A DNA stretch of 64,000 bases from Paenarthrobacter aurescens (GTDB lineage Bacteria > Actinomycetota > Actinomycetes > Actinomycetales > Micrococcaceae). Location of the stretch: contig NZ_CP157456.1 of the NCBI RefSeq assembly GCF_041549525.1, forward strand, positions 2,232,001 through 2,296,000, given 5' to 3'. A model generated the notes under the pieces. The model saw only the letters and a program-made list of their open reading frames with translations, had not been told where the DNA came from and did not search any database. Made by a program: the position numbers and the translations under genes. Shown here in pieces: positions 39,480 to 43,832 of the stretch. Every line of letters starts with the position of its first letter. Position 1 is the first letter of the stretch.

Positions 39480-42008
39480 CTAGGCAGGAACGATGTTCAC
39501 CAGTTTAGGTGCCCTGACGATCACGGTGCGGATGCCGCGGCCATCCAGGGCACGCTGAACGTTCTCCGAGGCCAAGGCGAGTTCACGCAGCTCGTCCTCT
39601 GCGATGTCCGGCGAAACTTCCAGACGGTCGCGCACCTTGCCTTGAACCTGAACAACGGCGGTAACGGTGTCCTGCACCAGCAAGGCGTCGTCGTGCTTCG
39701 GCCAGCCTGCGTTCGCTACAGATGCAGGGTGACCCAAGGCGTTCCAGAGGTCCTCCGCCGTGTAGGGCGCAAACAAGCTCAGGATGACAGCCACGGCCTC
39801 CGTTGCCTCACGAACGGCGGGATCTGCGGCACCTGCACCAGAGTCGATGGTCTTACGGGTGGCGTTGACCAGCTCCATCAACCGGGCCACAACCACGTTG
39901 AACTTGTTGTTATCCAACAGTTCAGCGGCGTCGGCAATGGTCTTGTGCGTGACTGTACGCAGGGCACGGTCACCGGCAGCAGGGTCAACACCGGGCTCGC
40001 TGCTGACGTCCTGCCCGAGGCGCCATGCGCGGGCAAGGAACTTGGCAGAACCCGACGGCGATACGTCCGCCCAGTCGACGTCGTCTTCCGGTGGGGAGGC
40101 GAAGACCATGGTGAGGCGGACGGCATCGACACCGAACTTGTCCAACTGCTCGCCCAAATCCACCCCGTTGCCGAGGGACTTGCTCATGGCCTTGCCGCCA
40201 TTGAGTACCTGGCCTTGGTTGAGCAGGGCTGAGAAAGGCTCGTTGGCTTCAATCAAGCCAATGTCCTTGATGACCTTGGTGAAGAAACGGGCGTAGAGCA
40301 GGTGCAGGATGGCATGCTCCACGCCACCTACGTACTGTCCAACCGGCATCCAGTTGTTGATTTTTTCGGGATCGAACGGGCCCTCGGTGTAGTCAGGTGA
40401 GACAAACCGCAGGAAGTACCAGGAGGAGTCCACGAACGTGTCCATGGTGTCCGTATCGCGCTGGGCGGCCCGACCACAATTGGGGCACTCAACGTTGACC
40501 CACTCGACGGCCGCAGCCAACGGGGAGGTCCCCTTCGGTGACAACGCCTCACCGCGCAGGTTATCCGGCAGCCTGACGGGCAGCTGGTCATCGGGCACGG
40601 GCACCTCGCCGCATTCACCACAGTGGATGATGGGGATGGGCGCACCCCAGAAACGTTGTCGGCTCAGGAGCCAGTCCCGCAGACGGAAGTTGACGAATTT
40701 CTCGCCGGTTCCCAGCTTCTCCAAAATCTCGATCGCGGCCGGAATTCCCTCGGACTTTGACAGGCCGTCCAGGTCGCCCGAGTTTTTCAGTGTGCCTTCA
40801 CCGGCAGTTGCTACGCCGGTTTCGGCGGGGTCCTCGGCGCCAGTTTCCAGCACCTCGCGGACGGGCAGTCCGAACGCCTTGGCGAAGTCGAGGTCGCGCT
40901 GGTCGTGCGCAGGCACAGCCATGATGGCACCCGTGCCGTAGTCGGCCAGCACGTAGTCAGCGGCCCATACCGGGAGCTTCTCGCCCGTGAGCGGGTTGAT
41001 GGCGTAGCGGCCGGTGAACACACCGGTCTTCTCGCGGTCGGTGGACTGGCGCTCAATCTCGGAGAGCGCCTTGACCTTCTCCCGGTAGGCCATGAGTTCA
41101 TCGTGCTGTTCCGGGGTCACCAGGTCCAGCGCCAAATGCGCATCTGCTGCAACCACAAAGAACGTTGCACCATACAGGGTGTCCGGGCGGGTGGTGAATA
41201 CCGTGACTTCGCGTTCAGCACGGTCTTCGGTGCCTTCGATGACGAAGCGCACGTGGGCGCCTTCGGAGCGGCCAATCCAGTTGCGTTGCATCGCCAGGAC
41301 ACGCTCAGGCCAGTGACCTTGGAGCTGGTCCATATCGTCCAGCAGGCGGTCGGCGTACTCGGTGATTTTGAAGTACCACTGGTTCAGGGACTTCTTGGTG
41401 ACCAGCGTGCCGCAACGCTCACAAGCACCGTTGACAACCTGCTCGTTTGCCAGGACGGTGAGGTCCTTGGGGCACCAGTTGACGGGCGAGTCCTTGCGGT
41501 AGGCCAAGCCGCGCTCGTAGAAGCGTTTGAACAGCCACTGCGTCCACCGGTAGTACTCGGGATCCGAGGTGTGGATGCGGCGTGACCAGTCGGCAGAGAT
41601 GGCGTAACGCTTGAATGAGGCCGCCTGCGTCTCGATGTTCGCGTAGGTCCACTCGCTGGGGTGGGCGTTGCGTTTGATTGCAGCATTTTCCGCGGGCAAT
41701 CCGAACGAGTCCCAGCCAATGGGGTGCAGGACGTCGAAGCCCTTCTGGCGCAGGTAGCGCGCCACGACGTCGCCCATGGCGAACGCTTCTGCGTGGCCCA
41801 TGTGGAGGTCGCCGGAAGGGTAGGGGAACATGTCCAGCACATAACGGCGCTCTTTGGAGCCGTCATCGGCAGGGGTGAAGACTTTGAGGTCTTCCCAGAC
41901 CTGCGGCCACTTGGCTTCCATCGCCGCGAAGCTGTAAACGCCTTCTTCAGGCGCTTCGGCTGCGGCTGTTGGTGCTGTTCCGGTCTCTGTCTCCGGCTGA
42001 ACGCTCAC
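39480..42008 (-). CDS. leuS: Leucyl-tRNA synthetase
   Basis: An 842-residue class I synthetase that charges tRNA-Leu. The HIGH-type motif is HMGH in [15 protein letters not shown], and the KMSKS-type motif is AMSKS in [13 protein letters not shown]. The editing domain in the middle contains [12 protein letters not shown] and the late Asp-containing [14 protein letters not shown] chose the GTG at 42008, preceded by GAGGG; an in-frame ATG 23 codons earlier is less likely. The upstream region carries a leucine-codon leader ORF and a terminator, consistent with attenuation. Confidence 0.96.
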
Positions 42009-42081
42009 TGCTGCCCTCTTCTGTTCTTTGATGGCGGTTTTGACTCCTGCTATGGCACGGGAATGTCCCGGACACACAAAA

Positions 42082-42102
42082 GCCCCTCAACAATGGAGGG
42101 GC
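42082..42102 (-). terminator. Intrinsic terminator in the leuS leader (attenuator)
   Basis: On the - strand GCCCCTC, a CATTGTT loop and GAGGGGC are followed by TTTTGTGTG. It stands between the leucine leader ORF and leuS, 73 bases before the leuS start, so it would block leuS unless prevented from forming. Confidence 0.82.
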
Positions 42103-42103
42103 G

Positions 42104-42131
42104 GCCGCACGGCTAATGAAAGCCGGGCGGC
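42104..42131 (-). other. Leader hairpin between the leuS leader ORF and the terminator
   Basis: GCCGCCCGGC and GCCGTGCGGC (- strand) pair at nine of ten positions around an eight-base loop, TTTCATTA. The left arm starts in the last base of the leader stop codon, so a ribosome at the stop would cover it. It could be the pause hairpin or part of an antiterminator. Confidence 0.65.
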
Positions 42132-42157
42132 TAGCTAAGCAGAAGGATCGCACGCAT
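42131..42157 (-). CDS. leuS leader peptide with three leucine codons
   Basis: An eight-codon ORF MRAILLLS (ATG at 42157, stop TAG) has leucine codons CTT, CTG, CTT in a row. The ATG lies six bases after TATTGT, so the mRNA probably starts at the ATG. It resembles the leuA leader peptide and sits before a hairpin and terminator, as expected for ribosome-mediated attenuation by leucyl-tRNA supply. Confidence 0.78.
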   Translation of the reverse strand: MRAILLLS

Positions 42158-42163
42158 AGATCT

Positions 42164-42169
42164 ACAATA
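42164..42169 (-). promoter_or_regulatory. Probable -10 element of the leuS leader promoter
   Basis: TATTGT on the - strand, six bases before the leader ATG, mirrors the leuA arrangement. No strong -35 hexamer is visible. Confidence 0.5.
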
Positions 42170-42232
42170 GCGCACGTTCAATCGTCCACGTCGCATCGAG
42201 CGGCTTACAAAAGACCGGCTCAACGACGCCGC

Positions 42233-42296
42233 GCTGTTATGGGGGCCCGGGAGCGGCTCCGGGCGTCCGCGTAGCGGGCGGGGCCCCCATAACAGC
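42233..42296. terminator. Long GC-rich hairpin after glpK
   Basis: Perfect 16-bp outer arms (GCTGTTATGGGGGCCC) enclose 32 bases that hold further GC-rich self-complementary segments such as GGAGCGGCTCC. It lies 22 bases after the glpK stop and upstream of the leuS promoter, so it should insulate leuS from glpK transcription. Confidence 0.82.
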
Positions 42297-42317
42297 TAAG
42301 GCGTCATGTCGCTGGTC

Positions 42318-43832
42318 TTACTTCACGTCCTCGTCGACCCAGTCCATGGACTTTGTCACGGCTTTCTTCCAGAGGCGCAGCTGACGCTCCTGCTCCTCTG
42401 CCGGAAGCTGCGGCTCCCAGCGCTTGTCTTCGTTCCAGTTGGCGCTGAGTTCACCCAGGTCCTTCCAGAATCCCACTGCGAGGCCGGCCGCATAGGCCGC
42501 GCCGAGGGCAGTGGTCTCCACTACCTTCGGCCGGACCACCGGTACGCCCAGGATGTCGGCCTGGAACTGCATGAGGGCCTCGTTGGCCACCATGCCGCCG
42601 TCCACCTTCAGCTCGGTGAGCGGAACGCCGGAGTCGGCGTTGACGGCGTCCAGTACCTCGCGGGTCTGGAAAGCAGTTGCTTCCAGGGCGGCGCGGGCAA
42701 TGTGACCCTTGTTGGCGAACCGCGTGAGGCCCACGATCGCGCCGCGAGCGTCAGCACGCCAGTACGGCGCGAACAGGCCGGAGAAGGCAGGGACAATGTA
42801 GACGCCGCCGTTGTCCTTGACCCCGGCAGCCAATTCCTCAACCTCGGGAGCGGAGCTGATCATTCCGAGGTTGTCACGAAGCCACTGGATCAAGGAACCA
42901 GTCACAGCGATGGAGCCCTCAAGGGCGTAGTGCGGCTTGGCATCGCCCAGTTTGTACCCGAGGGTGGTGAGGAGGCCGTTCTTGGAATGAACAATTTCCT
43001 CGCCGGTGTTGAAGATCAGGAAGCAACCGGTGCCGTACGTGTTCTTCGCTTCACCGGGCTGGAATGCTGCCTGGCCGAACGTCGCTGCCTGCTGGTCACC
43101 AAGGATGCCTGCAACCGGAGTTTCGCGCAGAAGCTGCGAGGTGTGAACCTGGCCGTAGACCTCGGATGAAGACTTGATGGCGGGCATCATGGAAGCCGGA
43201 ACGCCGAAGACGTCCAGGATTTCCTGGTCCCACTGCAACGTCTCAAGGTCCATGAACAGGGTGCGTGAGGCGTTGGTGACGTCAGTAACGTGCACTCCGC
43301 CGTCAACACCGCCGGTGAGGTTCCACAGAACCCAGGCATCGGTGTTGCCGAAGAGGAGGTCGCCGGCTTCGGCTTTCTCGCGGGCGCCATCGACGTTGTC
43401 CAGGATCCATTTGATCTTGGTGCCGGAGAAGTACGTTGCCAACGGCAGTCCGACCTTTTGCTTGAAACGCTCAAGCCCGCCGTCCTGCGCCAGCTGATCA
43501 ACAATGGGCTGCGTGCGGGTGTCCTGCCAGACGATGGCGTTGTACACCGCTTCGCCGGTGTTCTTGTCCCAGACCACAGCGGTTTCGCGCTGGTTGGTGA
43601 TACCGACGGCGGCAATATCGTGCCGCGTCAGGTTCGCCTTGGACAAAGCTGAGGCGATGACCTCACGGGTGTTGTTCCAGATTTCGGCGGGGTTGTGCTC
43701 AACCCATCCGGCCTGCGGGAAGATCTGCTCGTGTTCCATCTGGCCGGTGGAGACGATGTTTCCGGAGTGGTCAAAAACGATGGCACGGGAGCTGGTGGTG
43801 CCCTGATCGATGGCGATGACGTATTGGTTCAT
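42318..43832 (-). CDS. glpK: Glycerol kinase
   Basis: A 504-residue FGGY kinase that phosphorylates glycerol to glycerol 3-phosphate. N-terminal [19 protein letters not shown] is the ATP phosphate motif; WFEHNP-type segment appears as [12 protein letters not shown]. The second FGGY signature region is [16 protein letters not shown] with [19 protein letters not shown]. The ATG at 43832 follows AAGGACG. It is the last of glpD-glpF-glpK and ends at a long hairpin. Confidence 0.97.

Follow-up and report, generated by a model that had tools for sequence, protein, structure and literature searches.

A candidate leucyl-tRNA-sensing attenuator before leuS in Paenarthrobacter aurescens combines two adjoining, compatible hairpins and has counterparts before ilvB and cimA

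The window, a 64,000-nucleotide stretch of the Paenarthrobacter aurescens genome, carries leuS on the minus strand downstream of glpK (minus strand, stop at 42318), and between them lie a short leader reading frame and two hairpins (Table 1). After its ATG (42157-42155) the leader reads CGT GCG ATC, three leucine codons (CTT 42145-42143, CTG 42142-42140, CTT 42139-42137), AGC and TAG (42133-42131), the Leu-rich peptide MRAILLLS with CTT, CTG and CTT that an earlier note on this DNA had read here. The first hairpin (H1) has ten pairs and one C.T mismatch around a loop at 42120-42115; it starts at the G of the TAG, 5 nt past the last Leu codon, in agreement with the note's placement of its start in the stop codon. 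One base, C 42103, separates H1 from the second hairpin (T), whose arms GCCCCTC (42102-42096) and GAGGGGC (42088-42082) enclose the loop 42095-42089 and are followed from 42081 by the U-tract. Both the sequence and a terminator scan bear out the 7-bp terminator stem with U-tract that had been claimed: in 41950-42400, both strands scanned, T is the sole terminator-like site (shuffles gave a mean of 0.4), and it ends 73 nt before leuS. By its sequence, T would thus qualify as an intrinsic terminator before a structural gene.

Table 1. Features before leuS and the gene itself, with their positions in the window.
Feature	Position	Strand	Basis and remarks
-10-like element TATTGT	42164..42169	-	sequence; 6 nt upstream of leader ATG, leaderless-type start
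Leader ORF MRAILLLS, with stop	42131..42157	-	sequence; Leu codons at 42145-42137
H1 5' arm GCCGCCCGGCT	42121..42131	-	sequence; first base is the G of the TAG stop
H1 3' arm AGCCGTGCGGC	42104..42114	-	sequence; two-sided changes in 9/10 H1 pairs (42 sequences)
Terminator hairpin T (7 bp, 7-nt loop)	42082..42102	-	sequence, terminator scan; 97.2% of cells paired (42 sequences)
U-tract TTTTGTGTG	42073..42081	-	sequence; predicted RNA 3' end at U42074
leuS, leucyl-tRNA synthetase, 842 aa, GTG start	39480..42008	-	PF13603 editing domain, PF00133

The leuS start is most likely the GTG at 42008, judging by the translation and by the start GTGAG(C/T)..CAGTC in several relatives; a longer reading frame would begin within the tail of T. 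The segment 42157-42009 folds with a minimum free energy of -60.1 kcal/mol (z -3.07), as low as none of 200 shuffles. A promoter scan returned no sigma-70 site, although TATTGT at 42169-42164 lies 6 nt before the leader ATG. Nothing points to a T-box riboswitch with its specifier loop and tRNA-bound antiterminator bulge: no Rfam family reached its threshold anywhere in the window, the three weak matches at E<=5 in 41980-42320 all belonging to unrelated families. Behind glpK lies a long inverted repeat without a U-tract (about 42307-42224, minus strand). A similar core precedes the leader in one relative (L021); a repeat family was ruled out, the core being single-copy in the genome at up to 2 mismatches.

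A DNA search found the element in 13 of 19 genomes, namely in all 13 of the genus, the own genome counted. Eleven of these leaders read MRAILLLS, one MRAILLLT and one MHAILLLS, and all 13 keep three Leu codons; the loss of Leu codons in close relatives, which the earlier note had named as evidence against its reading, was not seen, and the leader reading frame is conserved as it had suggested checking. In the family, leuS was present in all 61 genomes drawn. One match (G046) begins inside the gene and was left out of the leader check; in 38 of the other 60 genomes, script or eye recognised a leader containing one or more Leu codons, together with a terminator, ahead of leuS, and in 22 of the 60 the script found no leader, only G020 among these also having been read by eye. 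Counted irrespective of the downstream gene, a DNA pattern had 100 matches in named genomes, and among the 80 listed, 72 came from Arthrobacter, Pseudarthrobacter or Paenarthrobacter and 8 from Sinomonas, Haematomicrobium, two Nocardioides, a Micrococcaceae, a Streptosporangiaceae and two unplaced actinobacterial bins. Going by these names, the window's family is Micrococcaceae. The element precedes leuS also where the upstream flank has no glpK match (e.g. L017, L018 and L025).

A covariance model built from 42 aligned elements matched 104 of 197 genomes in the family, belonging to 18 of 32 genera, and 140 of 296 in the class, belonging to 64 of 114 genera, the class count pooling leuS, ilvB and cimA sites; a leuS-only reading of it was ruled out, weaker matches preceding ilvB and cimA. 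Across the phylum 17 of 198 genomes matched. Five of the 17 lie outside the class and precede leuS (2), ilvB (2) and a leuA-like gene (1), as judged by eye from the reading frames. In the own genome of 4.36 Mb the model has one site at E<=10, the leuS element (E 9.6e-14), a match that is not independent because the window's own sequence was among the 42 used to build the model. The model does not find every element, since it missed the one before the genome's own ilvB. The leuS observation nevertheless stands well above chance.

Detection gave 82 elements, or 76 after merging identical ones; L029, L033, L036, L051, L098, L101, L140 and L150, with a full or reduced element recognised by eye or by an earlier script, stand outside the 76. 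A TANNNT motif lies 6 nt (63 elements) or 7 nt (13) upstream of the start codon in all 76, own included; the script demanded it at 4-9 nt, so that its presence reflects selection, the 6-7 nt spacing not. H1 is present in 76/76. It begins exactly 5 nt past the last Leu codon in 57 (2-8 nt in the others), and the spacer between H1 and T measures -1 in 3, 0 in 40, 1 in 24 and 2 in 9, ranges that are partly set by a search allowing starts at 2-9 nt and spacers of -1 to 3. Against composition-kept shuffles the H1 score reached p<0.05 in 70/76.

For the alignment, 42 of the 76 were hand-picked so as to be widely spread and of moderate length. From the MAFFT alignment RNAalifold returned the same two helices, mutually compatible, and two-sided changes were found in 13 of 17 pairs (9/10 in H1, 4/7 in T). 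Cells were paired in 93.9%, compared with 41-52% when the partners were slid by 1-3 columns, and 71 cells carried two-sided changes; neither value was reached by any shuffle (0/500).

As their last Leu codon, 63 of the 76 use CTT, 6 CTC, 5 CTA and 2 CTG, whereas CTT makes up 91 of 2760 Leu codons (3.3%) in the coding sequence of 41 leuS genes; related sequences are not independent, and the bias extends across families. Rare codons at the control positions of a leader are a known way to sharpen attenuation. Past T, counted from its GGGG, a T stands at +12 in 71/76 and a G at +13 in 64/76, and this T-G conserved eight nt after T would place the RNA 3' end at 42074. Stop codons are TAG in 45, TGA in 27 and TAA in 4. 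In other families the peptide usually ends LLL-x-(E/G/R/Q)-P-R-TGA, its P-R codons (CCGCG) forming the arm of H1; TAG replaces GAG or GGG in the majority of the window's own family and, outside it, in L068, L145 and L148, so that the same RNA arm comes after the stop. These sequences thus keep the RNA arm and not the peptide end.

Beyond the genus Leu is mostly retained, with only one or two Leu codons in L029, L033, L036, L051, L098 and L101. A single Leu codon, the rare CTA, is found in MYSQRDLV (L098) and MYSQRDLA (L101), and a single CTC in MSSRRLAGRR (L051); an H1-like hairpin and a terminator still follow in all of these. In L029, a family member with the one-Leu leader MAYFLG, H1 is absent and the terminator arm begins in the stop codon, which looks like a deletion between TAGCC repeats. 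L029 is a natural test case for the role of H1.

A translating ribosome covers 9 nt beyond its A-site codon. With this footprint placed on each of the 76 elements and the free RNA folded, the median pairing probability of H1 fell from 0.99 with Leu1 in the A site to 0.87 (Leu2), 0.35 (Leu3) and 0.00 (stop), and that of T stayed at 0.98 for all three Leu codons and 0.97 for the stop. The window's own element, for which the earlier note had suggested such folding, behaves alike (H1 0.99, 0.89, 0.49 and 0.00; T 0.97). T exceeded 0.5 in 76/76 at Leu1 and Leu2, in 75/76 at Leu3 and at the stop and in 74/76 without a ribosome. The predicted RNA structure thus depends on ribosome position, and since H1 varies with the ribosome and T remains stable, the ribosome would decide H1 and H1 would not decide T by pairing.

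Visual inspection and partition functions, the latter computed for a ribosome at Leu1, Leu2, Leu3, the stop or absent, showed an antiterminator overlapping T to be rare. Upstream pairing of roughly two or more among the first four bases of T was predicted in 5/76 at Leu1 (counted with the second arm of T not yet made), 2/76 at Leu2 and 10/76 without a ribosome. In ribosome-free RNA the first base of T has a mean probability of 0.41 of pairing upstream, by eye through the Ser and stop codons (AGC TAG), a pairing that we did not count as a starvation state because a stalled ribosome would cover those codons. Within secondary structure, an antiterminator and a terminator contending for the same bases, the mark of the classical attenuator, are thus lacking in nearly all elements. 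The observation that the first hairpin and the terminator are adjacent and not mutually exclusive holds in nearly all of the 76 relatives: as modelled, H1 and T abut yet hardly ever compete for bases, which is unusual.

The same layout recurs before other genes. From the class list, 20 second or weaker model matches were hand-picked for gene assignment: 12 precede cimA, 6 ilvB and 1 leuS, and one (L221) has no assigned gene. An NCBIfam scan of 10 of the 18 cimA and ilvB genes placed five above the curated cut-off of TIGR00977 (citramalate synthase) and the other five above those of NF005860 and TIGR00118 (acetolactate synthase large subunit); the remaining 8 were named from sequence motifs. 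All 12 cimA leaders contain two or three consecutive Ile codons (LIIS, IIIN and LLIIGRRAG, each before a stop), and by their sequence they are candidate isoleucine attenuators; the loci are L210, L212, L213, L215, L217, L219, L220, L222-L225 and L227. The ilvB leaders carry I/L/V runs (ILVLP and LVVLGQRAG, again before a stop). Among the 18 ilvB and cimA loci, 10 have H1 starting 5 nt past the last I/L/V codon, and the spacer between H1 and T is -1 to 1 in 18/18 (allowed -1 to 3). That the codons follow the gene while the hairpins stay is the strongest evidence for a switch that reads codons.

Before the genome's own ilvB (L239, 2542592 downward) the leader MITFVTVGVVVLTKRVA, ending in a stop, has Val-Val-Val-Leu control codons; its last run codon CTT is followed by 5 nt, GCGCGTG.../CACGCGC and a terminator. 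Two ilvB loci (L350, L353) have the leader MRTRILVLGKRVG, which is the S. lividans ilvL peptide, with the same layout. When 28 ilvB loci, drawn from 30 chosen genomes, were surveyed, the script oriented 24, with the layout in 15 and none in 9, and left 4 unoriented; by eye the layout is also present in L345, L356, L359 and L369, and the survey gives no total, L342, L343, L344, L349, L358 and L367 being unread. When the ilvB and cimA rows were folded, H1 exceeded 0.5 at the chosen stall in 17/22 and T in 21/22. The five low H1 values arose where the script set the end of the control codons too far downstream (L211, L216, L220), from competing pairs (L356) and from a wrong terminator call (L345); in L369 the script gave no terminator.

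The window's leuA (16600) also follows a leader, MRTAMLLLSCRGEA with its stop (16735-16691, minus strand), and a perfect 11-bp helix CCGCGGCGAGG/CCTCGCCGCGG (16706-16696, 16668-16658) occupies the place equivalent to H1. No U-tract follows the leader and helix (16735-16658). A LEU element described before leuA (PMC1262725, accessible text) has a Leu-run leader and no terminator, and either a protein site or a pseudoknot, with the Leu codons pairing with the leuA Shine-Dalgarno sequence, has been proposed for it. By resemblance, in its Leu-run leader and in the helix at the matching place, the window's leuA leader appears to be such an element; it is perhaps kin of the leuS element, with which it has LLLS and CTTAGCTxGCCGC in common, although the leuS element has a terminator and the LEU element has none. 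Outside the class, L235 (G569) has a leuA-like gene behind the Leu-run leader MYSPARDLLLLM with its stop, a hairpin and a terminator, in contrast to the window's terminator-free leuA element.

The element precedes two types of LeuS, which in our sample have 42-47% identity to the other type's reference and 60% or more to their own (typed by one reference per type, no tree), and it does so even in one family (f13: G083 long; G100 and G115 short). Contrasting types behind the same attenuator are seen in L162 versus L163 and L164, and in L158 versus L014. The gene degV follows leuS at many loci of the short type and, among the typed genomes of the long type, in six (G093, G016, G013, G181, G150 and G169). 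It was not found after leuS in the f13 loci; many of the stretches examined end soon after leuS. On the simplest reading, the leuS coding sequence was possibly exchanged at the locus and the switch stayed.

Attenuators before leuS are already known from Streptomyces (PMC1262725; PMC8079986), as the earlier note had stated for predicted ones. In the accessible text of the former, Seliverstov et al. (2005) predicted them in Streptomyces avermitilis and S. coelicolor, alike to ours in gene, Leu-codon leader peptide, upstream hairpin and terminator; they are called classical, with an antiterminator hairpin, whereas the window's element has almost no base overlap, and that text nowhere mentions Arthrobacter. 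For S. lividans TK24, the available part of a 2021 RNA-seq study (PMC8079986) maps LeuL2, MRAVRLLLSEPR, a leuS leader that is likewise leaderless and has a hairpin and a U-stretch; the identical peptide occurs in L155 and L157. In register with MRAILLLS, LLLS is common to both and is followed by E-P-R in LeuL2 and stop-P-R here, the window's TAG standing where the longer form has GAG, so that the H1 arm would be untranslated.

Branched-chain genes offer further parallels in the accessible parts of their sources. The 'fast' attenuator of Corynebacterium glutamicum ilvBNC (PMC11857589) resembles our element in a leader start near the transcript start (one nucleotide away), a CUU control codon and adjacent antiterminator and terminator bases; its hairpins share three bases, whereas most window-type sequences have no overlap. 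The Corynebacterium ilvB-II motif, whose reporter was higher in minimal medium (PMC10272879), likewise has a uORF rich in branched-chain codons and two neighbouring stems, the second a terminator, but the antiterminator suggested for it arises from pairing between the first stem's loop and the second stem, which was not seen in the leuS element. In Mycobacterium tuberculosis ilvB1 (PMC13236596), again with a branched-chain-codon uORF, an upstream hairpin and an intrinsic terminator, the control codons matter: changing LVVI to Ala left expression low and unresponsive to the inhibitor; set beside the leuS element by its description, it is presented as two mutually exclusive structures. In S. coelicolor ilvB, replacement of the control codons was reported to be without effect on regulation (PMC1262725).

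Because hairpin competition was tested for and not found, we regard the leuS element as a structural variant of a functionally known kind. Our literature search, with subscription papers mostly beyond its scope, found no title on Arthrobacter leuS, no paper combining citramalate synthase, leader peptide and attenuator and, judged mostly by titles, none describing neighbouring hairpins that antiterminate without shared bases; a 2010 study by Lopatovskaya et al. may cover leuS more widely. The accessible parts of two surveys (PMC2965389, PMC4833913) contain no leuS.

The candidate attenuator proposed in the earlier note gains support from conservation, covariation and the matching codons before ilvB and cimA. 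Its leader is a short reading frame with a run of Leu codons, Leu being kept in relatives, as would be expected of an attenuator by sequence. We consider it probable, at roughly 0.7, that the element is a ribosome-mediated transcription attenuator which senses charged tRNA-Leu and sets leuS transcription; the estimate concerns the attenuator as such, a part shared by the readings with a classical antiterminator or a pause hairpin discussed below. With plentiful leucyl-tRNA, the ribosome would reach the stop codon and cover the 5' arm of H1, T would form unhindered and transcription would end near 42074. With scarce leucyl-tRNA, the ribosome would stall with the first or second Leu codon in its A site, H1 would form and RNA polymerase would read on into leuS. 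We infer that stalling at Leu raises leuS transcription, a direction of control taken from this logic and from the codon-to-Ala result in M. tuberculosis ilvB1. Several observations speak against the attenuator: the single-Leu leaders L098 and L101, the loss of H1 in L029 and the 22 of 60 family genomes without a leader by script. The S. coelicolor codon replacement also counts against it, because the ilvB loci with the S. lividans ilvL peptide (L350, L353) have the same layout.

The least certain step is how H1 would prevent T from forming. Folding of a terminator has to be completed within the RNA exit channel, where its base lies some 8 nt back from the 3' end of the RNA. If a 10-bp helix backed by a stalled ribosome stands 0-2 nt before the base of T, no room would remain, and H1 may thus block T by steric exclusion at the exit channel and not by capturing bases. 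Taken alone, this steric step is our best guess at the mechanism, but a tentative one that we think more probably wrong than right. After gyrA in M. smegmatis, tandem hairpins are more efficient terminators than single hairpins (cited in PMC8355165, as far as its accessible part goes), the opposite of what the steric step predicts.

Alternatively, the attenuator may be classical, with an exclusive antiterminator not seen by us, formed by a short overlap at the base of T, a register-shifted H1 or a tertiary contact. The adjacent ilvBNC antiterminator and terminator with their common GCC trinucleotide (PMC11857589) offer a precedent, and folding predicts a shifted H1 that takes several T bases in L055, L056, L058 and L096; in L022 it predicts a different upstream pairing. 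Such pairing of T bases is confined to the 5/76 and 2/76 given above for the Leu1 and Leu2 stalls, at both of which T exceeds 0.5 in every sequence (folded without pseudoknots), and RNAalifold finds H1 and T compatible, all of which makes this alternative unlikely. We regard as quite unlikely that H1 serves mainly as a class I pause hairpin, keeping RNA polymerase in place until the arrival of the ribosome, which, stalled or moving, would then act on termination through contact with the polymerase, H1 itself being no antiterminator. The fixed geometry of control codons, H1 and T would suit this role, a leaderless start with a short leader would require synchronisation, and pausing at the first hairpin has been proposed for ilvBNC (PMC11857589). 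Among 69 sequences (7 of the 76 with long T loops left out), however, no conserved pause motif was found after H1: a YG step occurs in 24, 23 and 22 at +10, +11 and +12 and in 21 and 20 at +14 and +15, so that no single step is prominent 10-12 nt past H1.

Were H1 and T a single tandem terminator, in which H1 aids termination, leuS transcription would rise when the ribosome translates to the stop codon and fall when it stalls. The contiguous hairpins could stack, and the M. smegmatis precedent fits, but the sign would be wrong for an aminoacyl-tRNA synthetase, ilvB and cimA, induction of M. tuberculosis ilvB1 needs its control codons (PMC13236596), and T is predicted to be stable on its own; we hold this reading very improbable. 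A non-regulatory origin, as the 3' terminator of glpK (which ends upstream on the same strand) beside a chance short reading frame, deserves next to no credence and is already contradicted by the relatives without an upstream glpK match, by the conservation of codons, distances and pairing and by the inverted repeat that glpK has of its own.

Textbook attenuation rests on two hairpins that are unable to coexist. The leuS design is widespread and strongly covarying, with two compatible hairpins set end to end at a near-fixed distance from the control codons, and if H1 antiterminates, geometry alone can block the folding of a terminator. Actinomycetota may, in a wider proposal that we would advance only as a possibility, share an attenuator design in which the antiterminating hairpin contains no terminator bases and works solely by touching the terminator's base, and whose module stayed at the leuS locus while the coding sequence there was replaced by another type. 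Control codons, 5 nt, a hairpin, 0-2 nt and a terminator would be its parts, the codons being exchanged for leuS, ilvB and cimA, and antitermination would depend on where the hairpin sits at the RNA exit channel and how large it is, backed by the docked, stalled ribosome. Under antitermination by position and not by base-pair competition, any helix could serve and sequences could turn over freely. The finding gives a covariance model for an element that reaches no Rfam threshold in the window, adds a candidate isoleucine attenuator before cimA and could be relevant to the ilvB result from S. coelicolor, which does not fit classical attenuation.
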